Position numbers and translations under genes: made by a program
Notes under the pieces: model-generated
What the model was told of the DNA's origin: nothing
The model's database searches: none
Seen by the model: only the letters and a program-made list of their open reading frames with translations
Shown here: positions 5,031 through 18,132 of the stretch, piece after piece
How positions within the stretch are numbered: position 1 is the stretch's first letter
Layout of the letters: each line of letters begins with the position of its first letter
Assembly: GCA_030739735.1 (NCBI GenBank)
Contig: JASLYQ010000023.1
Location: 1-44,713, forward strand
DNA: 44,713 nt
Direction: 5' to 3'
Source: Alphaproteobacteria bacterium
GTDB lineage: Bacteria; Pseudomonadota; Alphaproteobacteria; UBA7887

Positions 5031-7211
5031 CTATTTCTTTCTGCGCCGCCGTTGTGGTCCTTTCTTTGGCTTCGGCCTCTCCTCTATCCCCCCATCCAGA
5101 GAGAAGCGTAGGCTCCCCGTTAACGCGTCGGCTTCTGCCAGCGTCACTTCCAAGGTATCACCTAGCTGTATCGCCTTTCCACTGCGACTGCCGACCAGGC
5201 GTTGGTGGGGCTCGTCGTGATCCATGTATTCTGGGAAATCTCGCATGGGGATGAGGCCTTGGGCGCCGGTGTCGGCTAGCTCGACGAAAAGGCCGAAGCG
5301 GGTGACGCCGGAGACGCGGGCGGGAAAGCTCGTGCCGACGCGTTCCGCAAGAAAGCGGGTGGCGAAGCGGTCGATGGCGTCGCGCTCGGCCACGGTGGCG
5401 CGGCGCTCGGTGTTGGAGATGGCCTCGCCAATCTCCGCCATTTCGGACGCGGCGCCCTTGGGCAGGCCACCCGCGCCCAAGCCCAAGGCGGAGATCAGGG
5501 CGCGGTGTACGAGCAGGTCTGCGTAGCGCCGGATCGGCGAGGTGAAGTGGGCGTAACGCTCCAGATGCAGGCCGAAATGGCCGATATTGTCTGGTGAATA
5601 TTCAGCCTGGCTCTGGCTACGCAGCACGGCCATGGTGACGGTCTCGGCCTCGGGTTTTCCGGCGGCCTGTTCGAGCAGCTTGCCGAACTGCTTCGGCACT
5701 AGCCGGCGGCCGCGCGGCAACTTGTAGCCGATGCCGTTGAGAAATTCGCGCAAGGTCTCCAGCTTGTCGTGCGGTGGCTGGTCGTGGATGCGGAACATGC
5801 AGGGTGCGCGGTGTGCGATCAGCGTCGTCGCGGCGGCCACATTGGCGGCGATCATGAACTCTTCCACCAGTCGGTGGCTGTCGTAGCGTGGGCGCGTCTT
5901 GATTGCCGTCACGTTGCTGTCGTCGTCGAGATAGACACGGCGCTCGGGCATGTCGAAGTCGAGGCTGCCGCGCTGCTTGCGCGCCGCGCGCAGGGCGTGG
6001 AAGGTGCCGTAAAGCGCCGCGCCACTCTCGTCCAGGACGTCGCCGTCAGCGTCCTCTTGGAGGCCGCGATAAGTCAGCCGCGCTGCCGAGCGCATGAGCC
6101 CGCGGGCGAAGCGATGGCTCAGCATCTTTCCTTCGGCATCCACGGTCATATGGCAAGCTATGCAGGCGCGCTGGGCCTTTGGCAGTAACGAGCAAAGGTC
6201 GCTCGACAGCGCCTGCGGCAGCATTGGCACGACCATGTCGGGCAGATAGACTGAGTTGCCACGCTTGCGCGTCTCGCGGTCGAGCGCATCGTCCGGGCGG
6301 ACGTAATGGGCAACATCCGCGATCGCCACGACCAATCGCCAACCGCCGACGTTGGCCGGGTCGGGATCGGGCTTGGCGAAGACAGCATCGTCATAATCGC
6401 GCGCGTCGTCGTCATCGATCGTCACCAGCGGCAGCGCGCGCAGGTCCTCGCGTGTGCCGAGGCTTACTGGCTTGGCGTCGTTGGCCTGGGCGATGGCGGC
6501 GGCGGGGAAGTCGTGTGGCAAGTTGTGATTGGCAATGACCAGGGTCGAGATGCCCTGCGGCCCGCCGAACGGCCCCAGGCTCTCGACCACACGCCCCTGG
6601 GGCAGGCCCATGCGCCGGGTACCTTTGGTCTCTACGACCACGAGATCGCCAACAGCCGCTGTCATGGCGTCGCTGTCGGCAATGAAGATCTCGCTCTTCT
6701 GGCGCCGGTCGCTGGGGCGCACGCACCCACTGATGCCACCGGGAAGGCGCGCGTAGACGCCGATAACGCGCTTCGGTTGCGCATCGAGCACGCGGATGAC
6801 ATTGCCGTCATAGCGGTCTTTGCCGCGTCGCTTGACCTTGACCAGCACTCTGTCACCGATGCCCGGTGCCCCCTGGTGGCCGCTGCGGGTGGAAATGGTG
6901 ATGCGTGGCGGCGGGCCGCTCGCCTCCCATGTAGCGGGGCGGGCCGTGGGCATGCCGTCGTTGTCGATGACGTCCACTTCGGCTACGACCACGGACGGCA
7001 GCTCGCCGGGCTTGCCGAGGCGGCGGCGATCGCCGGCGATCAGGCCGTCGCCGGCCATCTCGCGCAGCAGGGACTTGAGGGCTACGCGTTCGGGGCCCGA
7101 TACGCCGAAGGCGCGTGCGATCTCACGCTTGCCGACCTTGCCGTCGGCGCCCTCAACAAACTCGAGGATCTCCGCCCGGGTCGGAAGGTCGCGTTTTCGA
7201 TTACTTGGCAC
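5031..7211 (-). CDS. rnr: Ribonuclease R (3'-5' exoribonuclease)
   Basis: RNase R degrades structured RNA processively from the 3' end and is needed for mRNA and rRNA turnover. The protein has 726 residues. In order: an N-terminal winged-helix segment (about 10-60), cold-shock type OB folds (about 70-220), the RNB catalytic domain with the Asp cluster in TIDDDDARDYDD (265-275), an S1 domain near the C-terminus (SFPARVSGVTRFGLFVEL), and a basic Lys/Arg tail. The start codon is GTG at 7211, inside the last codons of topA (11-base overlap), so the two are translationally coupled. Confidence 0.95.
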   Translation of the reverse strand: MPSNRKRDLPTRAEILEFVEGADGKVGKREIARAFGVSGPERVALKSLLREMAGDGLIAGDRRRLGKPGELPSVVVAEVDVIDNDGMPTARPATWEASGPPPRITISTRSGHQGAPGIGDRVLVKVKRRGKDRYDGNVIRVLDAQPKRVIGVYARLPGGISGCVRPSDRRQKSEIFIADSDAMTAAVGDLVVVETKGTRRMGLPQGRVVESLGPFGGPQGISTLVIANHNLPHDFPAAAIAQANDAKPVSLGTREDLRALPLVTIDDDDARDYDDAVFAKPDPDPANVGGWRLVVAIADVAHYVRPDDALDRETRKRGNSVYLPDMVVPMLPQALSSDLCSLLPKAQRACIACHMTVDAEGKMLSHRFARGLMRSAARLTYRGLQEDADGDVLDESGAALYGTFHALRAARKQRGSLDFDMPERRVYLDDDSNVTAIKTRPRYDSHRLVEEFMIAANVAAATTLIAHRAPCMFRIHDQPPHDKLETLREFLNGIGYKLPRGRRLVPKQFGKLLEQAAGKPEAETVTMAVLRSQSQAEYSPDNIGHFGLHLERYAHFTSPIRRYADLLVHRALISALGLGAGGLPKGAASEMAEIGEAISNTERRATVAERDAIDRFATRFLAERVGTSFPARVSGVTRFGLFVELADTGAQGLIPMRDFPEYMDHDEPHQRLVGSRSGKAIQLGDTLEVTLAEADALTGSLRFSLDGGIEERPKPKKGPQRRRRKK

Positions 7212-9750
7212 TACCGGCGCGTTTGCGCTTGGACTTCGCCTTGCGCTTGACTGGCGCCCGCTTGTTTTTGCCTTTCTTGGCCGACTTGTCGGCGATCAGG
7301 GTGAGCGCGGTCTCCAGCGTCACGCTGTCCGGGTTCTCGCTTTTCGGCAGGGTCGCATTGATGCGGCCGTGCTTGACGTAGGGACCGTAGCGGCCGCTGA
7401 ACAGCGCTACGTCGCCGTGGTCGTCCGGGTGCTTGCCGAGCACCTTGAGCGGCTTCGCACCACCGCGTCCGCGCGAGGGCTCGGCGAGCAGGGCCACGGC
7501 GCGGTTGATGCCGATGGTGAGTACGTCGTCGTCGGCCATGAGCGACTTGAAGGCCTTGTCATGCTTCACGTAAGGCCCATAGCGGCCTATGCCGGCGCTG
7601 ATCATCTCGCCGCTCTCGGGATGTGGCCCGATGTTGCGGGGCAGGGCGAGCAGGCCGAGGGCCACGTCAAGATCGACGTCATCCGGGCCCGTGCCTGTGG
7701 GCAGGGACGAGCGCTTAGGCTTCTCACCGTCGGCGGCTTCGCCGCATTGCACGTAGAGGCCGTAGGGACCCTTGCGCAAGGTTATCTCGGTGCCATCAGA
7801 ATCGTTACCAAGCACCATCGGTTTCTCGGCCAGGGCGTCGTCGGTAGCATTCTCGCCATTGGCCCCGACCAGGGGGCGCGTGAAGCGGCATTCCGGATAG
7901 GCGGAGCAGCCGATGAAGGCGCCGAACTTTCCGAGCTTGAGGCTGAGCTGGCCCTCGTTGCAGCGCGGGCAGACGCGTGGGTCTTTGCCATCGCTGTTCT
8001 CCGGGAAGATACGCGGTCCCAGCACCTGGTTTAGGGTGTCGAGGATCTCGCGCACGCGCAGGTCGCTAATCTCGGTCACGGCCAGGGAGAAGGCCGACCA
8101 GAACTCGCGCAGCACGCCTTTCCACTCCAACTCGCCGTTGGAGATCTGGTCGAGCTGATCTTCGAGACGCGCCGTGAAGTCGTATTCGACATAATGCTGG
8201 AAGAAGTTTTCCAGGAAGGCGGTGACCAGTCGGCCGCGGTCCTCCGGCTGAAAGCGTTTCTTCACCAACGTGACATAGTCGCGGTCCTGCAGCACCGAGA
8301 TGATGCTGGCATAGGTCGAGGGCCGGCCGATGCCGAGCTCCTCCATGCGCTTGACCAGCGAGGCCTCGCTATAGCGCGGTGGTGGCTCGGTGAAATGCTG
8401 TTCCGGTGTGGCGTCTGTCAGGCCCAGAGCATGGCCCTTGTCGACATTGGGCAGGCGGTGGTCTTCGTCGTCGTCCTTGGCGGGATCGTCGCGGCCTTCG
8501 GTGTAGAGCTTGAGGTAGCCGTCGAAGGCGACCACGGAGCCCGTTGCGCGCAGGCCGACGCTACCGTCCGCAGCGTCGATATCGAAGCGCACCTGGTCGA
8601 ACACAGCCGACGCCATCTGGCAAGCCACGGTGCGGTTCCAAATCAGCTCGTAGAGCCGCGCCTCATCGCGGGCCAGGCTCATCTCGTCGGCAACGCGCGC
8701 CGGATCGGTCGGGCGGATTGCCTCATGTGCCTCCTGGGCGTTCTTCGAGCGCGTCTTGTAGCGCCGCGGCTGCTCCGGCAAATAATTTTTGCCGTAGAGC
8801 CCGGCGACGACAAGCCGCGTTGCCTCCAGGGCTTCGCTCGACAATGTCACGGCATCGGTACGCATGTAGGTGATGAGGCCGCCCTCGTAGAGCGTTTGCG
8901 CGACGCGCATGGTGTGCTGGGCAGAATAGCCGAGCTTGCGTGCAGCCTCCTGCTGCAGGGTCGATGTGGTAAAAGGCGGGGCCGGATTACGCCGCACCTG
9001 CTTGCGCTCGACTTTGGTGGCGTTGAAGTTGCCCGCTTTGACGCGCTCCACCGCGTCGGCAGCCGCGGCCTTGTCGGGCAGGGCGAACTTGTCCAGCTTC
9101 TTGCTGTCGAGCGTGACGAGACGTGCGCTCAACGCTGCGCCAGAAGGTGTTGTTAGCGCTACGTCGACGGTCCAGTACTCGCGGCTCTTGAATACCTCTA
9201 TCTCCATCTCGCGATCGACAACGAGGCGCAGTGCTACCGACTGTACGCGTCCGGCCGAGCGGCTGCCCGGGACTTTGCGCCAGAGCACGGGCGAGAGCGT
9301 AAAGCCGACCAGGTAGTCGAGCGCGCGTCGCGCCTGCTGGGCGTTGACTAGGTCCATGTCGATGTTGCGCGGGTTGGCCACGGCGTTGAGAACAGCATCG
9401 CGGGTGATCTCGTGAAAGACCACGCGCTGGGTCTGGGGCTGGGTTAGGGCGCCCTTCTTCTCCAGGTGATTGAGCACGTGCCAGGCGATGGCTTCGCCCT
9501 CGCGATCGGGGTCGGTGGCGAGCACGAGTCGGTCCGACTCCTTGACTGCGTCGGTGATGTTCTTAAGGCGCTTGGCCGACTTCGGATCGGCCACGTAGTC
9601 CATGGCGAAGTCTTCATCCGGACGGACCGAGCCGTCCTTTGATGGCAGATCGCAGACATGCCCGTAGGTGGCGAGCACGCGGTAGTCCGAACCCAGATAT
9701 TTTTCAATGGTGCGGGCTTTTGCCGGCGACTCAACAATCACGACGTTCAT
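7201..9750 (-). CDS. topA: DNA topoisomerase I
   Basis: This type IA topoisomerase relaxes negative supercoils. The protein has 849 residues. The Toprim domain begins at residue 1 (VIVESPAKARTIEKYLG) with the metal-binding DPDREG at 80-85; the catalytic Tyr is Tyr295 in GGLITYMRTDAV. One four-Cys zinc finger (CPRCNEGQL ... GCSAYPEC) is followed by three C-terminal repeats built on GPYVKH or GLYVQC, and a long Lys/Arg tail. Alphaproteobacterial TopA proteins usually have this layout. A remnant of dprA lies upstream on the same strand, where an intact dprA normally precedes topA. Confidence 0.96.
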   Translation of the reverse strand: MNVVIVESPAKARTIEKYLGSDYRVLATYGHVCDLPSKDGSVRPDEDFAMDYVADPKSAKRLKNITDAVKESDRLVLATDPDREGEAIAWHVLNHLEKKGALTQPQTQRVVFHEITRDAVLNAVANPRNIDMDLVNAQQARRALDYLVGFTLSPVLWRKVPGSRSAGRVQSVALRLVVDREMEIEVFKSREYWTVDVALTTPSGAALSARLVTLDSKKLDKFALPDKAAAADAVERVKAGNFNATKVERKQVRRNPAPPFTTSTLQQEAARKLGYSAQHTMRVAQTLYEGGLITYMRTDAVTLSSEALEATRLVVAGLYGKNYLPEQPRRYKTRSKNAQEAHEAIRPTDPARVADEMSLARDEARLYELIWNRTVACQMASAVFDQVRFDIDAADGSVGLRATGSVVAFDGYLKLYTEGRDDPAKDDDEDHRLPNVDKGHALGLTDATPEQHFTEPPPRYSEASLVKRMEELGIGRPSTYASIISVLQDRDYVTLVKKRFQPEDRGRLVTAFLENFFQHYVEYDFTARLEDQLDQISNGELEWKGVLREFWSAFSLAVTEISDLRVREILDTLNQVLGPRIFPENSDGKDPRVCPRCNEGQLSLKLGKFGAFIGCSAYPECRFTRPLVGANGENATDDALAEKPMVLGNDSDGTEITLRKGPYGLYVQCGEAADGEKPKRSSLPTGTGPDDVDLDVALGLLALPRNIGPHPESGEMISAGIGRYGPYVKHDKAFKSLMADDDVLTIGINRAVALLAEPSRGRGGAKPLKVLGKHPDDHGDVALFSGRYGPYVKHGRINATLPKSENPDSVTLETALTLIADKSAKKGKNKRAPVKRKAKSKRKRAGSAK

Positions 9751-9807: not shown

Positions 9808-10075
9808 TTATTTCGGAAAAATCGTTCTGCTACTATCGCGGTGCACGTCTCCCGTCAGCTCCAGCTCCAGTGCCAGGATCATGACCTTGGCGGCTGTTAA
9901 GTGACACTGGCGCACCAGTTCGTCAACACCCAGCGGGGTGCCACCGCGCAAAGACAGCAGCGTCTCGTGCTACGCGTCGGAGGGTATGGCAAGGCTCGCG
10001 TTGGGCCCCGCGTGGTAGCTTTGTGAGGTCCGGACGGTGTGCTGCGGCAAGAGCCTCGGTGACGTCGGCCACGCC
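9808..10075 (-). pseudogene. dprA: 3' remnant of dprA (DNA processing protein A)
   Basis: The minus strand upstream of topA encodes a recognisable DprA C-terminal winged helix: VDELVRQCHLTAAKVMILA followed by LELELTGDVHR, ending at a TAA (9808-9810). Its frame is closed by TAG three codons upstream of the recognisable part. Further upstream, in another frame, ADVTEALAAAHRP matches the segment that normally joins the DprA Rossmann domain to the winged helix. The catalytic Rossmann part is missing altogether; the Rid gene begins at 10153. DprA loads RecA on incoming single-stranded DNA in natural transformation, and that function is lost at this locus. Identification is by motif and by the conserved dprA-topA order. 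Confidence 0.75.
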
Positions 10076-10152
10076 AGGTCCCCGTTTATCCGAACACCCA
10101 GTGCTATCCCGACAAGAAGGTGGCTCGCCGACTCCAATTCCTGAGACGGGCT

Positions 10153-10569
10153 CTAGGAACCGCCATGTTCCGGCGGCTCGGGGATCACGGCGGTGGCTTC
10201 GATCTCGATCATGCCCGGCGAATCGAGCAAGTCAGTCACAAAGAGCATCGACATGGCTGGGTAGGAGCGGCCCATCAGCTCGCGCCAGATGCCCCCGAGC
10301 TGCGGTCGGGCGGCGAGATAGGCGTCCTTGTCGACGCAAAAGCAGGTCATGCGGCAGATGTGCTCGGCGTTGCCGCCGGCCTTACGCACGACGGCGAGGA
10401 CGTTCTTCACGGCCTGCGCGAATTGGGGTATCAGCTCGGCGCTCTCGAACTTCTGGCTCTCGTTCCAGCCGACTTGCCCGGCAACGAAAAGGAGTCGTCC
10501 GGCGGGGGTGAGGATGCCATTGGCATAGCCGATCGGCTTGCTCCAGCCGTCGGGCTCGATTGGCGTCAT
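10153..10569 (-). CDS. Rid/YjgF/UK114 family protein lacking the catalytic Arg
   Basis: This 138-residue protein has the Rid fold pattern: GQVGWNE near the N-terminus, QAVKNVLAVVRKAGG in the middle, and PGMIEIEATAVIPE near the end. Enamine/imine deaminating RidA carries an Arg in the segment just before the last strands (P-x-R-S/T). Here that segment reads YPAMSMLFV, so the Arg is replaced by Met. This is a feature of the non-RidA subgroups, whose substrates are largely unknown. ATG at 10569 is preceded by GGGAGGA; a longer frame to 10665 would run into the divergent promoter. It is transcribed divergently from the bcr operon 111 bases away, so a shared control region is likely. Confidence 0.85.
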   Translation of the reverse strand: MTPIEPDGWSKPIGYANGILTPAGRLLFVAGQVGWNESQKFESAELIPQFAQAVKNVLAVVRKAGGNAEHICRMTCFCVDKDAYLAARPQLGGIWRELMGRSYPAMSMLFVTDLLDSPGMIEIEATAVIPEPPEHGGS

Positions 10570-10615
10570 GAACGCGTCCTCCCGTACTCGTGTGGTTGTC
10601 ATTGCGATTAAAAAC

Positions 10616-10627
10616 GTATTATAGTAC
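10616..10627. promoter_or_regulatory. Candidate operator dyad between the Rid gene and bcrC
   Basis: GTATTATAGTAC is an imperfect palindrome (GTA-N-TATA-N-TAC) in the AT-rich centre of the 111-base divergent intergenic region. Its place between two start codons suits a regulator controlling both directions. No regulator gene is adjacent and the site does not match a consensus I can name. Confidence 0.3.
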
Positions 10628-10680
10628 GACAATACCATTATTACTGTCGGAAATCTCAGTCTCACTAGGTGCAGCCAGCC

Positions 10681-11844
10681 ATGTCGATAACCGATATCGT
10701 CGATCGCTGCGAGGCCCTATTCGAGGATCTCTCCTTTGCGGCAGTGCGGGAATGGAAGGCAGCGGCGCCCGATCGCAAGGCGATCGGCTACATGCCGATC
10801 TACGTGCCGCTGGAGATCATTCACGCCGCCGGTATGCTACCCGTGGGGATTCTCGGTGGTGGTGATCATCTCGAGGTGATCCACGGCGACGCCTATTACC
10901 AGAGCTACATTTGCCGTATTCCACGCTCGACCATCGAGCTTGGCCTGACCGGGCGTCTCGATTACCTCGATGGCATGCTGTTTCCCAGCATATGCGATGT
11001 GATCCGAAATCTCTCGGGCATGTGGCAGCTGCTGTTCGAGGACAAATATGTCCGATATTTCGACGTGCCCCAGAATTTCACTGATGCGGTCGGCGGTAAC
11101 TATTACCGCCACGAACTGGAGGTTCTGCGCGACGATCTCGCAGGCGTCGCCGGACGTGAGATCACAGACGCGGCTCTGAACAACTCGATAGGCGTCTACA
11201 ACGAGAACCGTGCTGCGGTGCGCGCGCTTTACGATTACCGCGCCGAGAAGCCCTGGCAGGCGCTGACATCGGAAGTCTATCTGTTGCTCCGCGCGGGCAT
11301 GGTGTTGCCAGTCGAAGAGCATACCGTGCTGATCGGCGACTATCTCGACGCCGTGCGTGCTGAGGACAGGCCAATGCGCGACAACTGCCGCGTCGTTCTG
11401 ACAGGCGCCTTCTGCGAGCAGCCTCCCCTTGGCATGATCCGGTCCATCGAGATGGCCGGCTGCTATGTCGTCGATGACGACCTCATGTTGGTGAACCGCT
11501 GGCTGACCGAAGAGGTGGTGGGCAACGGCGACCCACTGTCCAGCCTGTCGGCTGCCTTTCTGCACCATTCTATGGAGACCTCCGCGAAATATGTGCCAGA
11601 CCGCGCAACCAAGGGCCGCCATCTTGTCGATGCTGTGCGCACCTCACAGGCTGAAGGCGTGGTTTTCGCCTCACCCAGCTTCTGCGATCCCGCGCTGCTC
11701 GACAGACCAATGCTGCAGCATGTTCTGACGGGGGAGAACATTCCTTACACAGCCTTCAAATATGCCGAGAACTCCGGCCAGATGCAGCCGATCCGCGAGC
11801 AGGCGGGAACCTTCGCAGATTCGATCAAGCTATGGAGTGCATGA
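10681..11844 (+). CDS. bcrC: Benzoyl-CoA reductase subunit C (class I, Thauera/Rhodopseudomonas type)
   Basis: This is one of the two substrate-reducing subunits (the B and C subunits, homologous to the 2-hydroxyglutaryl-CoA dehydratase D component). The protein has 387 residues, the usual size. Cys78 (SYICRIP), Cys105 (FPSICDVIR) and Cys335 (SPSFCDPALL) occupy the positions expected for Fe-S ligands. Class I reductases drive two-electron Birch-type reduction of benzoyl-CoA to cyclohexa-1,5-diene-1-carbonyl-CoA at the cost of ATP. It opens the four-gene operon in the Thauera order C-B-A-D. The start is ATG at 10681; an upstream in-frame GTG at 10669 has no ribosome binding site. The stop overlaps the bcrB start (ATGA). 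Confidence 0.9.
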   Translation: MSITDIVDRCEALFEDLSFAAVREWKAAAPDRKAIGYMPIYVPLEIIHAAGMLPVGILGGGDHLEVIHGDAYYQSYICRIPRSTIELGLTGRLDYLDGMLFPSICDVIRNLSGMWQLLFEDKYVRYFDVPQNFTDAVGGNYYRHELEVLRDDLAGVAGREITDAALNNSIGVYNENRAAVRALYDYRAEKPWQALTSEVYLLLRAGMVLPVEEHTVLIGDYLDAVRAEDRPMRDNCRVVLTGAFCEQPPLGMIRSIEMAGCYVVDDDLMLVNRWLTEEVVGNGDPLSSLSAAFLHHSMETSAKYVPDRATKGRHLVDAVRTSQAEGVVFASPSFCDPALLDRPMLQHVLTGENIPYTAFKYAENSGQMQPIREQAGTFADSIKLWSA

Positions 11845-13130
11845 TGAACGCGACAGCGGACCCGGTGGTGCAAAAAGAAGATTCGATGTGGCGCCAGAAG
11901 GCGATGATTAACGCCAATTACACGGCGCTCGCCAATGCGCATGAGGAAGATAGGAAGGTCGTCTCGACTTTTGTGCCGGGAAACCTCAACGAGTTGCTGA
12001 TGTGTTTCGACTTCGTGCGCAACCTGCCTGAGACCAACGCGCTACAGGCGGCGCTGCGCAAGCAGAGCGGGCGCCTGGTGCTCGACGCCGAGCGCAACGA
12101 CCATTCCGAGGACGTCTGCACGTACGTCAAGGCCGACATCGGCATGATGATGCAGGGCATCGGTCCGACCGGGGAGACGATGCCCACTCCCGACCTGCTG
12201 ATGCTTTCCTATACGGGCTGCTTCACCTTTATGAAGTGGTTCGAGCTGGTCCGTGAGCACTATGGTTGCGAGACGACCATGCTGCACATTCCCTATCAGG
12301 GCGATGGTGTGATCACGCAGAATATGCGTGACTATGTGGTCAAGCAACTCAAGGAAGACGTGATCCCGGTACTCGAGCGAATCAGCGGTATCAAGTTCGA
12401 TATCGACCGGCTTCGGGAATACCTTAAAGAATCTGTTAAGGCCGAGGAGGACCTGGTTTGGGTGCTCGAATCGGCCAAAAATAAGCCCTCGCCGATCGAC
12501 GCCTATTTTGGTGGCGTCTATTACATTGGGCCGATCTTCACGGCTTTCCGCGGCACGCCAGAGGCCACTGACTATTACCGTACCCTGCGCCAGGAGATCG
12601 CTGAGCGTGTGGCGGCCGGGAAGGGTCCGATCACGCCCGAGGGCGAGCTTGACGATGAGCGCTTCCGCCTGGTCGTCGAGGGCCCGCCGAACTGGACCAA
12701 CTTCCGTGAGTTCTGGAAGATGTTCTACGATGAGGGTGCTGTGGTCGTCGCCAGCACCTATACTAAAGTCGGTGGCGTCTACGATTTCGGCTTTCGCCAC
12801 GACCCAGACAACCCGCTGGAGAGCCTCGCTGAATATTGCCTTGGTTGCTACACGAATCTCAACCTGCCATCGCGTATCGATATGCTCTGCAAGTATCTTC
12901 AGGACTACGAGGCCGATGGTTTACTCATCAACTCTATCAAGAGCTGCAACAGCTTCTCTGCTGGCCAACTGCTGATCCTGCGCGAAGTCGAAGAGCGTAC
13001 GGGCAAGCCAAGCGCCTTCATCGAGACCGATCTGGTCGATCCGCGCTATTTCTCGGCCGCCAACGTCAAGAACCGCATCGAGAGCTATCTGCAGATGCTC
13101 ACTCAGAAACGCGCTCGCTCGGCGGCCTGA
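11844..13130 (+). CDS. bcrB: Benzoyl-CoA reductase subunit B
   Basis: This 428-residue partner of BcrC in the ring-reducing half of the enzyme has many segments typical of true aromatic-ring reductases rather than general dehydratase homologues: VVSTFVPGNLNELLMCFD, SYTGCFTFMKWFE, AYFGGVYYIGP and EYCLGCYTNLNLPSR. Cys126, Cys332, Cys335 and Cys368 (INSIKSCNSFSAG) are candidate ligands for its Fe-S cluster. Start: of ATG codons at 11832, 11841 and 11844, the last overlaps the bcrC stop as ATGA and has GGAG six bases upstream. The substrate could also be a substituted benzoyl-CoA (3-hydroxy or 4-methyl), which sequence alone does not decide. Confidence 0.92.
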   Translation: MNATADPVVQKEDSMWRQKAMINANYTALANAHEEDRKVVSTFVPGNLNELLMCFDFVRNLPETNALQAALRKQSGRLVLDAERNDHSEDVCTYVKADIGMMMQGIGPTGETMPTPDLLMLSYTGCFTFMKWFELVREHYGCETTMLHIPYQGDGVITQNMRDYVVKQLKEDVIPVLERISGIKFDIDRLREYLKESVKAEEDLVWVLESAKNKPSPIDAYFGGVYYIGPIFTAFRGTPEATDYYRTLRQEIAERVAAGKGPITPEGELDDERFRLVVEGPPNWTNFREFWKMFYDEGAVVVASTYTKVGGVYDFGFRHDPDNPLESLAEYCLGCYTNLNLPSRIDMLCKYLQDYEADGLLINSIKSCNSFSAGQLLILREVEERTGKPSAFIETDLVDPRYFSAANVKNRIESYLQMLTQKRARSAA

Positions 13131-13145
13131 GGAGAGAGACGCGAC

Positions 13146-14459
13146 ATGGACTGTTACATCGGCATCGATCTCGGGTCGACTACTACAAAGGCCGTAGTGC
13201 TCGACACCAATGACGAGGTTCTCGGCCGCGGCATCACAAATTCACGGTCGAACTATGACATCGCGGCGCAGATCGCCAAGCAGGAGGCATTGATTGACAC
13301 CCGGTTTAACCTCTTCCGGCGCTCGCTGATCGACGTGGAGTCGTTGCGCGGACGCCAGGACGCTTTTCTCGATTTGCTCGAGCGCAGTTTCCGTCTGGAG
13401 CAGTATCTCGAGCAGCTGGCCGATCTGCGTGACACCTGCGAGGGCAACGTGACAGAGCAACGCTTTGGCGAGCGCAGCGATGCCCTACGCGAGGTCTTGC
13501 GCGCGTTGTTCGGCCGGCTTTTTGCCGACGCTCCAGCTATGTTCGCGCCGGGAGTGGATCGTAAGTCAGATTTTTTCCGCGATATCGCTGGCTCGCGCTA
13601 CCAGGCCGTGGGCGAAGAAGTGGCGGCGGCGGCAGATCTGGAATTCGATGCCGTACTCAATGTCTACGACCGCTCCATCATTGACGTGGAGAACCGCATC
13701 TCAAATGAGTCGGAGAGCGCCAAGTTGAAGCGCGCGCTGGACCGCGCCTTTACCGAAGCGACCGATCTGGCGGCCTCCGAAGAGGCCATCCGGGCACCGG
13801 TCACGGGAGTGCTCGATATCGCGCTCGACGAGACCTACACCGTCGGTACCGGCTATGGGCGTGCTCGCCTGCCGTTTTCGAAGGAGCACATCCGCTCCGA
13901 GATCCTCTGCCACGGGCTCGGTGCTCATCGCATGTATCCGAATACCGCCACCGTGCTCGACATCGGCGGCCAGGACACCAAGGCGATACAGGTGGATGCC
14001 GATGGTATCGTCGAGAACTTTCAGATGAACGACCGCTGCGCTGCCGGCTGCGGGCGTTATCTCGGCTACATCGCGGACGAGATGAATGTCGGCTTGCACG
14101 AGCTCGGGCCGATCGCCATGGAGGCGACGCGCCCGGTGCGCATCAATTCCACCTGCACCGTCTTTGCCGGTGCCGAGCTGCGCGACCGCCTAGCGCTTGG
14201 TGAGAAGCGTGAGAACATTTTGGCGGGTCTGCATCGGGCGATCATTTTGCGGGCAATGTCGACCTTGTCGCGCTCAGGCGGCGTCAGCGATGAGTTCACC
14301 TTCACCGGCGGCGTGGCCAAGAATCAGGCCGCGGTGGATGCCCTCAAGGCGCTGGTGAGGGAGAACTATGGCGAGATCACCATCAATATAAATCCCGAAT
14401 CCATCTATACCGGCGCGCTCGGTGCGGCGACCTTCGCTGTCCGTGCTGGAGAGGCATGA
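13146..14459 (+). CDS. bcrA: Benzoyl-CoA reductase subunit A (ATPase/activator)
   Basis: This is one of the two ATP-hydrolysing electron-activating subunits of the BadF/BadG/BcrA/BcrD family (ASKHA fold). The protein has 437 residues. The phosphate loop [14 protein letters not shown] is at 7-20, the long insertion characteristic of the BcrA/BadF branch spans about 50-215, and a second nucleotide motif [12 protein letters not shown] lies at 271-282. Cys298 and Cys302 ([13 protein letters not shown]), with Cys337 nearby, would supply the [4Fe-4S] cluster shared at the A/D interface. It takes electrons from ferredoxin and passes them to BcrBC with ATP hydrolysis. A strong GGAGAGAG site lies upstream. 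One base separates its stop from bcrD. Confidence 0.93.
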
Positions 14460-14460
14460 C

Positions 14461-15306
14461 ATGACCGTCACCGCAGGCATCGACATCGGCACGGGCGCCG
14501 TCAAGGTGGTGATCTTCGACTGCGACGGAGAGCAGAATAGATGGCTTGCTAAGCGCGTAGACCGCTTGCGTCGCCGAGACCCGATGGTCCTTGCTGAGAG
14601 CTGCTATCAGGCGCTTCTTAAGCAACTTGGTCTAGGGCGCGATGAGGTGGCCTATGTCGCGACTACGGGCGAGGGTGAAAATATATCCTTCCGCACTGGG
14701 CATTTCTATTCTATGACCACCCATGCTCGTGGCGCCATTCACCTCAACCTCGGCGTACGCGCGGTGCTGGACGTCGGCGCGCTGCATGGCCGTGCCATCA
14801 GCATCGACGAGCGTGGCAAGGTTCTGTCCTACAAGATGACTAGCCAGTGCGCCTCTGGCTCCGGGCAATTTCTGGAAAATATAGCGCGCTATCTTGGAGT
14901 CGCGATCGATGAGATTGGGAAGCTGTCACTGCAGGCGAATGACCCGGAAAAGGTTAGCGGTATATGTGCCGTGCTCGCCGAGACAGACGTCATCAACATG
15001 GTCTCGCGCGGCATCACGACGCCCAACATCCTGCGCGGCATCCACGTCTCTATGGCCGGACGCCTAGCCAGGCTCTTAAAGGCGGTCAAGGTTCCGGCCG
15101 GCGAGACGGTGCTGGTGACCGGTGGCTTGGCGTTGGACGATGGGTTGATCGGGGCGATGCGCGACGAAATCGCAGATCGGAAAGTTGACGTGGCGATCGA
15201 AAGCAACCCGGATTCGATCTATGCCGGCGCCATAGGCGCCGCGCTGTGGGGCGCCTTTAGACACGAGAAGTTGGTCCATCTCGGCCAGTTGGCGGAGGCC
15301 TCTTAG
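14461..15306 (+). CDS. bcrD: Benzoyl-CoA reductase subunit D (ATPase/activator)
   Basis: This 281-residue protein is the shorter ATPase partner of BcrA. Visible elements are the phosphate loop AGIDIGTGAVKVVIFD (5-20), the second nucleotide motif VLDVGALHG (102-110), the cluster ligands Cys130 (MTSQCASGSGQF) and Cys169 (GICAVLAETDV), and the family C-terminus AGAIGAALWGAFRHEKL. A GGAGAGG site precedes the ATG at 14461. This is the last gene of the operon. No ferredoxin, dienoyl-CoA hydratase or ferredoxin-reducing enzyme follows, unlike in Thauera, so these must lie elsewhere if the system works. Confidence 0.93.
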   Translation: MTVTAGIDIGTGAVKVVIFDCDGEQNRWLAKRVDRLRRRDPMVLAESCYQALLKQLGLGRDEVAYVATTGEGENISFRTGHFYSMTTHARGAIHLNLGVRAVLDVGALHGRAISIDERGKVLSYKMTSQCASGSGQFLENIARYLGVAIDEIGKLSLQANDPEKVSGICAVLAETDVINMVSRGITTPNILRGIHVSMAGRLARLLKAVKVPAGETVLVTGGLALDDGLIGAMRDEIADRKVDVAIESNPDSIYAGAIGAALWGAFRHEKLVHLGQLAEAS

Positions 15307-15485: not shown

Positions 15486-16160
15486 TTAGTCGAAGCCGAC
15501 GTAGCGCACAAAATCGTCATTAGGTGCACGCCGCGAGACCACGTCGTTGGCGGCGAAATCATCATTGGGGTAGCCCATGGCGATGCAAATCATTATGACC
15601 TGATCGTCGGGGATTTGTGCGTGCTCGCGCACCACAGCCGATTGCATGATGCCTTGGCCGTTGATCACTGTGCCGAGGCCCTTCGACCAGGCGGCCAGCA
15701 CCAGGCCGTAGGTGACGGCGCCGAGATCAAAATGGCTGATAGTGGCGGGCTCCAGACACTTGTTATAGGTCATAACGACGGATATCGGAGCGTCGAACTG
15801 GCGGAAGCCGCGCATCACCCAATCCTGGCGCTTCTCGGCGTCGTGACGGGCGATGCCCATGGCCTCGAAGAGCTGCACAGCAATCTCAATTTGGCGTTGG
15901 CGGTGAATGCCCTCATAGCCGTCACGCACCGGGATCTCGCGCTGTACCTTGGCGCCGGCTAGCATGCGTTCGCTATTGCCTCGGCGGATGTTCTCCAGAG
16001 GTTTGCCGGTGACAATATGAAATTGCCAGGGCTGGGTGTTCATCGACGACGGTGCTCGTTTGGCGATGTCAATGATCTCTTCGATCACTGCTCGCGGCAC
16101 CGGGTCCGGCTTATAGCCGCGAATGCTGCGCCGATCGCGCACCAGTCTCTCGAAGTCCAT
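15486..16160 (-). CDS. Nitroreductase family flavoprotein
   Basis: This 224-residue FMN-dependent oxidoreductase of the nitroreductase fold contains the FMN-binding N-terminal motif RDRRSIRGYKPDPVP, the conserved RAPSSMNTQPWQFHIV segment, and the C-terminal CIAMGYPND element. Members reduce nitro groups, quinones, enones or act on other substrates; this sequence does not show which. Two starts are possible: ATG at 16160 (behind AGAGG, chosen) or ATG at 16196, which lies in the scar of an IS3-type transposase. It is the last gene of a minus-strand operon with the LarA-like gene and two small genes, and it converges on bcrD. Confidence 0.85.
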   Translation of the reverse strand: MDFERLVRDRRSIRGYKPDPVPRAVIEEIIDIAKRAPSSMNTQPWQFHIVTGKPLENIRRGNSERMLAGAKVQREIPVRDGYEGIHRQRQIEIAVQLFEAMGIARHDAEKRQDWVMRGFRQFDAPISVVMTYNKCLEPATISHFDLGAVTYGLVLAAWSKGLGTVINGQGIMQSAVVREHAQIPDDQVIMICIAMGYPNDDFAANDVVSRRAPNDDFVRYVGFD

Positions 16161-16192
16161 TGCCTCTGACCTGGGCCCCTTGGCTCCCTCAC

Positions 16193-16345
16193 TCATAAGG
16201 AGAGTCCTGGTTCTGCATAACGCATTGTCGAAGGGTTGGCACGCGCGCCGTGCGCGGGGCCATCAAGTCGCTCAAGCGCTCGGCGCGCCTCTGCGGGCGT
16301 GTCTCCTTTGAGCGCCGAGTGCGGGCGGATGGTGTTGTAGTCGTG
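16193..16345 (-). mobile_element. 3' tail of an IS3-type transposase (OrfB), inserted in ytoQ
   Basis: One minus frame reads HDYNTIRPHSALKGDTPAEA followed by RRALERL, the C-terminal signature of IS3-family integrase-type transposases, and stops at 16193-16195. The DDE catalytic core and the upstream end are absent, and only about 50 residues remain. The frame begins exactly where the YtoQ similarity of the neighbouring frame ends (16345), so the element interrupted ytoQ and was then deleted except for this tail. No intact inverted repeat could be recognised. Confidence 0.7.
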
Positions 16346-16545
16346 GCGCCCTTGCGGTCGTGCCAGAAGGCGTCTGGCTCGGACCCGAGAATGGTCGTGC
16401 CGCAGTCGTCCGAATCCTCGTGGACACAGACCGGCGCATCGATGCGCACGGGCAGGCTGGCGTCTGCGACGCCTCTCGCGATTCGCTCACGCCAGTCGCT
16501 GTGAATTTCGCCCGAGAGGTAAACAAACCAGGTGCGCTCTTCCAT
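16345..16545 (-). pseudogene. ytoQ: YtoQ family protein, truncated by an IS remnant
   Basis: The first 67 residues (FVYLSGEIHSDWRE near the start, then LPVRIDAP and ILGSEPDAFWHD) match the N-terminal half of the YtoQ family, whose members are about 145-150 residues. From 16345 on, the reading frame no longer resembles YtoQ and the DNA encodes an IS3 transposase tail in another frame; the fused frame stops at 16189. The second half of the fold is therefore lost. The biochemical function of YtoQ is not established. It lies 13 bases downstream of the small alpha/beta-barrel gene in the same operon. Confidence 0.75.
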
Positions 16546-16854: not shown

Positions 16855-18132
16855 CTATGCTGCCGCGTCGAGATCCATCGTGACAGGTTCGCTCATCAGC
16901 TCCATGCGCTCGTGCGTGCGCACCTCGTCGAGCAGTGGCTCGCTGACCGCGATCTCGTCCAGTTTCAAGGTGTTCTTGATGCGCACAATGCGCGCGTCTT
17001 GTGGCGCAACGCCGGTTAAAGTTTTCACGGCCAGCGCCACCGCCTCGCTGTTGGTCTTCATAGCGATGGGGATGTAGGCGCCGTCAAGATAGGTCGAGGT
17101 GACGACGTTGGCGTAAGTGTAGTTGAAGTCGATGCGGCTCAGCAGGTGCTGGGTGATCACGTCGGCGCAGCCAATGCCGCTAGCATTGCCCTTGGTGGCG
17201 TCGGTGAGGTCCAGCAGAACGATCTTCTTCACGCGCGGATGCTCAAAGCCTGCAATGCCACGGGCGTTGCGGCCGGTGATATTGGGGTCGAAGCCGGCGC
17301 CACTAATCTCCTTGCCGATCTCGTCGATGACCAGCACGTCGATATCGTCGATCTGGATGCGGCCCATCAGCGACTTTGCCTTTGCTTGCAGCTCGGCCTC
17401 GCGGTCGAACAAGGAGACTGCCGACAGGCCCTCGACGATGGCGGTCGCGTCATAGGCATCCTCGACCATACCGATGCCGAAGAGGAAGGGTCTATTGTCT
17501 ATGATGACTTGGGCCGCGGCCGGCAGCACGGTGCCGAAATCGCTCATGCTGTTGCCGCCGTGCAGCGCCGTGGCGCCGTTGATCTTGCCCATGCCGATGG
17601 TGAGCATCTTGGTGATGCCGCTCTCGATCGCGGCGCGATAGCTGGTGTGGGGCTTAATGCGATTGATCACGACAACGCCGTCGGCCTCGCTGGCGTAGCG
17701 GTCCATGTGCACTTCAGTGCCGTTCTTGAGTGTGCCGAGGACGACAGTGTCCATGGTGCAGCGTATCGGCGCGCCTACCTCGTCCTCGGTAATGCCGTAA
17801 CCAGCGAGAACGCTGCGCTGGCCTTCGAGGGTTCCGCCCCCGTGGCTGCCCATGGCCGGGAAGATGAAGGGCTCGGCGCCGCGCGCCTTGAGGCCCGCAA
17901 CGAGCGCTTTCACCGCGGTCTGAATATTGTTTACCCCGCGGCTCCCAACCCCGACGGCTATGCTGGCGCCAGGCTTGATGCTCTCGCCCACCCCCGGCTT
18001 GTCAAGTTCCGCCGTGACCGCCGCGGCCACGTCCGGCAGCGCGTGATCGTCAAAAAGCTGGCGCACCCGCGCCATGCGCGGCAACGGCAGATCCAGCCCG
18101 CCCGCCATATTGAACTGAAGGTTCTCGAACAT
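16855..18132 (-). CDS. LarA-like protein (lactate racemase domain, DUF2088)
   Basis: This 425-residue protein of the LarA superfamily contains PAMGSHGGG (His97), NRIKPHTSYR (Lys160, His162), SGITKM (Lys175) and ALHGGN (His191). The 16-residue distance from Lys175 to His191 equals that between Lys184, which holds the nickel-pincer nucleotide, and the nickel-ligand His200 in Lactiplantibacillus LarA, so cofactor binding is plausible. Known members racemise or epimerise alpha-hydroxy acids, but the family is broad. The genes that make the cofactor (larB, larC, larE) are not in the window. It heads the minus-strand operon that ends in the nitroreductase. The ATG at 18132 has only a weak ribosome binding site. 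Confidence 0.75.
   Translation of the reverse strand: MFENLQFNMAGGLDLPLPRMARVRQLFDDHALPDVAAAVTAELDKPGVGESIKPGASIAVGVGSRGVNNIQTAVKALVAGLKARGAEPFIFPAMGSHGGGTLEGQRSVLAGYGITEDEVGAPIRCTMDTVVLGTLKNGTEVHMDRYASEADGVVVINRIKPHTSYRAAIESGITKMLTIGMGKINGATALHGGNSMSDFGTVLPAAAQVIIDNRPFLFGIGMVEDAYDATAIVEGLSAVSLFDREAELQAKAKSLMGRIQIDDIDVLVIDEIGKEISGAGFDPNITGRNARGIAGFEHPRVKKIVLLDLTDATKGNASGIGCADVITQHLLSRIDFNYTYANVVTSTYLDGAYIPIAMKTNSEAVALAVKTLTGVAPQDARIVRIKNTLKLDEIAVSEPLLDEVRTHERMELMSEPVTMDLDAAA

Follow-up and report, generated by a model that had tools for sequence, protein, structure and literature searches.

The window analysed here is the whole contig C23 (JASLYQ010000023.1, 44,713 nucleotides) of the draft genome of Alphaproteobacteria bacterium GCA_030739735.1 (G000), an assembly of 2.64 Mb in 69 contigs with 98.8% completeness and an estimated contamination of 0.15%. 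The comparison set for its order (UBA7887) comprised nine genomes of a single family. In the window, topA and rnr stand beside a remnant of dprA, which is followed by a block of rid, bcrCBAD, and a nitroreductase-family gene and then by an insertion sequence (IS) remnant and a truncated ytoQ. Among known RNA families, two tRNAs and nothing else were found in the window. The features are as follows.

5031-7211, minus strand: rnr (RNase R; Pfam RNB and CSD2), the end of the ancestral row, located after topA in relatives.
7201-9750, minus strand: topA (Pfam Topoisom_bac), 73% identical to that of the sister genome G002.
9808-10005, minus strand: dprA pseudogene stub, winged-helix end, with an in-frame TAG at 9970-9972 and the frame end at 9808-9810 (PF17782, tblastn, and shuffles).
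10006-10090, minus strand: probable decayed dprA linker in another frame (frameshift); a weak feature, with the same motif in two relatives.
10091-10152, no strand: left junction, where recognizable dprA is gone, up to the rid stop at 10153.
10153-10569, minus strand: rid (RidA-like, L-PSP family; PF01042), a companion of bcr clusters elsewhere.
10596-10665, no strand: predicted divergent rid/bcr promoter region, by consensus matches only (2 versus 0.3 expected).
10681-11844, plus strand: bcrC (TIGR02263, 647 bits; cut-off, 421).
11832-13130, plus strand: bcrB (TIGR02260, 780 bits; cut-off, 487).
13146-14459, plus strand: bcrA (TIGR02259, 691 bits; cut-off, 578).
14461-15306, plus strand: bcrD (TIGR02261, 455 bits; cut-off, 313).
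15486-16160, minus strand: nitroreductase-family gene (PF00881), the right end of the block.
16167-16352, minus strand: IS remnant at the right junction, a putative transposase C-terminal piece plus the IS end (rve_3, E 6.6e-5, below the cut-off).
16345-16545, minus strand: truncated ytoQ (PF11071, profile positions 1-59), cut after about 60 of 140 profile positions.

Upstream of topA, only the winged-helix end of DprA remains, and the rid-bcrCBAD block begins within about 150 bases. The translation of 9808-9969 matched the DprA winged helix PF17782 (E 1.4e-9; 38.3 bits, cut-off 22.9), and with an intact relative's DprA as the tblastn query, the match was limited to 9835-10005 and ran through the TAG at 9970-9972. 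The stub DNA aligned with the 3' end of dprA from the sister genome G002 with a score of 112 (best of 200 shuffles, 43), and the translated alignment reached 145 (best of 300 dinucleotide shuffles, 58). Besides, the stub probably extends to about 10090 in another frame, in which VADVTEALAAAHRP lies opposite ADDV/AEDV of intact DprA, a resemblance that is not significant alone. The TAG and the frame change interrupt any reading frame for DprA, and the winged-helix core VDELVRQCHLT is well preserved. The profile, tblastn, and shuffle results agree with the original prediction that only the winged-helix end of dprA, with a stop and a frameshift, is left before topA.

The DprA Rossmann domain (PF02481) had no match anywhere in the 98.8% complete genome, and the second, full dprA that the prediction had proposed to look for was absent from G000 in a genome-wide search. 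Since the Rossmann domain is essential to DprA function (PMC6533540) and is absent here, the stub is a pseudogene. We also sought a sigma-70-type promoter inside the stub, as a reason for its retention upstream of topA, and obtained no match. A literature search on dprA decay near topA found nothing with the terms used.

The gene order in relatives is pyrB-pyrC-plsY-dprA-topA-rnr. In G003 (86% complete), pyrB, pyrC, plsY, dprA, and topA are contiguous, separated by gaps of a few to 55 bases. In the sister genome G002 (83% complete), whose contig starts within dprA so that the 5' part of the gene is out of view, an intact DprA C-terminal part lies 5' of topA, and rnr follows topA. In G000, pyrB-pyrC-plsY is located on a different contig (C4, 78.9-82 kb), where four bases separate the end of plsY from tauD, which is convergent with it and precedes gltD and gltB (both named by length and sequence start, not by family search); no 5' dprA piece was found beside plsY on C4. 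The row is split between plsY and dprA in G000, with the plsY half and the topA half on separate contigs of the 69-contig assembly that are not physically joined, and the left junction suspected by the original prediction is thus real.

If C23 and C4 are assumed to be colinear, at least 34.6 + 78.9 = 113 kb lies between the plsY and stub halves. The genes in this interval include hemB, a gyrB-type gene, glnA, tRNA-His, and gltBD, and the interval looks like chromosomal backbone rather than an imported island. Because the halves would be separated by some 113 kb or more that contains core-type genes, a compact insertion is unlikely, provided that the contigs are colinear. Of the earlier proposal of an insertion or rearrangement, the junction is therefore supported by the split row, and the insertion in compact form is not.

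The rid gene and bcrCBAD are divergent. All four Bcr subunits, encoded in the stretch of about 10669-15306, are full length and exceed their curated equivalog cut-offs, and every cysteine invariant across 78 rows in BcrC, BcrB, and BcrA (the three subunits covered by this test) is kept in G000. From these sequence features, the bcr genes look intact. Of 83 bcr loci, 39 have a rid homologue in the neighbourhood. Its usual position is about 6.4 kb upstream of bcrC, separated from it by had, oah, and dch, and this pattern indicates that rid belongs with bcr.

The other junction of the block, also proposed for a search by the original prediction, exists at the right edge in the form of the IS remnant at 16167-16352. 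Its rve_3 match reached 23 bits on a fragment, against a cut-off of 26.5. The IS is multicopy in G000 and has a sharp common end: copies on C2 and C30 end within 0 to 1 base of 16167, one further copy has the same edge as 16352, and the nitroreductase gene starts seven bases from the terminus at 16167. Some copies are located at contig ends (C2, C7, and C30), and the element probably broke the assembly. The left junction, on the dprA side, yielded no IS copy. The presence of an IS remnant truncating ytoQ to the right of the block makes an IS-mediated rearrangement plausible. The larA neighbourhoods of relatives, in which we sought the state before the IS, were uninformative, as larA was common and ytoQ was not adjacent to it. 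The gene at 16855-18132 encodes a nickel-pincer-cofactor-dependent isomerase of group 22 (NF052515), which has a second copy on C11 and is widespread in the family.

Among the relatives, G001, G004, G006, and G008 are without dprA and have plsY directly before topA. In two of these, the bcr-free G004 and G001, a decayed winged-helix stub remains between plsY and topA (L053, 7872-7934, and L051, 9958-10062; 0 of 300 shuffles reached the score in each case); these stubs are shorter than that of G000 and also broken. The candidate stub of G008 was borderline (7 of 300 shuffles), and in G006 and G007 the motif was in the right place but not above chance. In G003, bcr lies on contig C36 and an intact dprA stands in the row with topA on C115, and the sister G002, in a genome 83% complete, gave no bcr match. 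In the TopA tree, G000 groups with G002 (99/97) and then with G003, and the dprA-less G001, G004, G006, and G008 lie on a separate long branch, implying that the dprA losses in G000 and in those four genomes are independent. The Bcr tree unites G000 and G003 with a third alphaproteobacterial genome (L122), with moderate support (80/92). The most economical interpretation is that the lineage probably carried bcr before dprA broke in G000, the alternative being separate gains, given that G002 has no bcr match.

We consider it likely that the organism's own chromosome was rearranged, with a split of the row between plsY and dprA, and that bcr was not the cause of the dprA loss. Under this explanation, the row from pyrB to rnr would have been parted so that the plsY side came to abut tauD-gltD-gltB and the topA side to abut rid-bcrCBAD; about two thirds or more of dprA, including the whole Rossmann domain, would have gone, with the winged-helix end left to decay. 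The bcr genes would probably already have been present in the lineage, the loss of dprA in bcr-free relatives would be a separate matter, and the IS remnant cutting ytoQ suggests that the rearrangement was IS mediated.

In the insertion form of the original prediction, instead, a single insertion with rid-bcrCBAD would have gone into dprA, destroying the gene and introducing benzoyl-CoA reductase. Gene breakage at both edges of the block, with the dprA stub on the left and ytoQ and the IS remnant on the right, is what such an event might leave, and the sister G002 has the dprA end next to topA with no bcr found. However, the far edge of the block does not carry the plsY side, which lies next to gltDB on a different contig, and what is broken at the right edge is ytoQ, not plsY-dprA. 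In addition, dprA has also been lost in relatives without bcr, of which G001 and G004 have the stub beside topA, and such decay in relatives without bcr is one of the two observations that the original prediction had named as refuting it; G003, with whose bcr that of G000 groups, keeps dprA. A destruction of dprA by incoming bcr is thus not supported, and we regard the single insertion as unlikely. A different order of events within the rearrangement explanation deserves more weight and is quite possible, even if we do not favor it: dprA may have decayed to a stub first, the later rearrangement having used a neutral site. G004 and G001, with a like stub and plsY still next to topA in the absence of any rearrangement, are consistent with this order, although the decay would then have to be recent and lineage specific, because G002 and G003 keep the dprA end or the whole gene.

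Two further explanations appear very improbable. The stub could still encode a small functional winged-helix protein, as the preserved VDELVRQCHLT core and the persistence of related stubs in two lineages might suggest, but it has an in-frame TAG, a frameshift, and no good start codon, and the stubs of the bcr-free relatives are shorter and also broken. Equally hard to credit is an artefact of assembly or binning. The draft is fragmented into 69 contigs, and some of their ends fall within IS copies; nevertheless, the stub decayed in place, topA groups with that of the sister G002 and bcr with that of a genome of the same family, and the estimated contamination is 0.15%. We therefore return to the rearrangement of the organism's own chromosome as the preferred explanation. 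It removes from the annotation a tempting but wrong causal link, in which the gain of aromatic degradation led to the loss of transformation. Evidently, topA and rnr can be retained when the dprA-topA row is split and dprA disappears, and winged-helix dprA stubs persist in two or more separate lineages within one small order.

The gene content around the reductase was also unusual with respect to had and oah, the ring-processing genes that are normally found together with bcr. Genome-wide model searches of G000 found neither had (best score, 105.6; cut-off, 338.65) nor oah (best score, 91.5; cut-off, 464.45), and the bcr-bearing G003 (86% complete) yielded generic relatives only. Both models were passed by the control genomes G009 and G052. 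The dch gene of G009 passes TIGR03189, and no dch adjoins bcr in G000. Among the weak matches in G000, enoyl-CoA hydratases on C15 and an alcohol dehydrogenase on C18 were considered as stand-ins for Oah and Had and were rejected as generic, falling below all specific cut-offs. In L122, korAB and a ferredoxin adjoin bcrCBAD, and had, oah, and dch are absent within its 19.5 kb. An Rrf2 regulator, a GNAT acetyltransferase, a rubrerythrin-like gene, and korAB are located near bcr at 2744-6809 of L122; Rrf2 and GNAT homologues are kept beside bcr in L062 as well.

Oah has been described as highly conserved among bacteria with this pathway (PMC5742626). A tentative and rather doubtful reading of the gene content is that, in a small group of uncultured Alphaproteobacteria (G000, G003, and L122), a class I benzoyl-CoA reductase that looks intact outlived Had, Oah, and probably Dch; its product would in that case enter some other, undescribed downstream route, or the enzyme would act as a reductase on a different CoA ester. 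The lack of Had and Oah matters for claims of anaerobic aromatic degradation made from genes, since bcr genes alone would read as a full pathway.

Compared with known systems, the stub resembles DprA (Smf; PF02481 plus PF17782) in its winged-helix end and, like dprA in related Alphaproteobacteria, lies 5' of topA. It differs in the missing Rossmann domain, the stop, and the frameshift; it is a pseudogene, not DprA. A dprA pseudogene at a rearrangement breakpoint is real but ordinary, a further case of something known. The element at the right edge is like IS3-type insertion sequences in its putative transposase C-terminal YNTIRPHSAL piece and in having several copies with a common terminus, but only about 186 bases are left here, and the family assignment is tentative. 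The bcr block resembles the class I benzoyl-CoA reductase cluster of the Thauera/Magnetospirillum type in that bcrCBAD exceed the cut-offs, the cysteines are kept, and rid is nearby. It differs from that cluster in that had, oah, dch, korAB, and the cluster ferredoxin do not adjoin bcr in G000, where had and oah are found nowhere in the genome.
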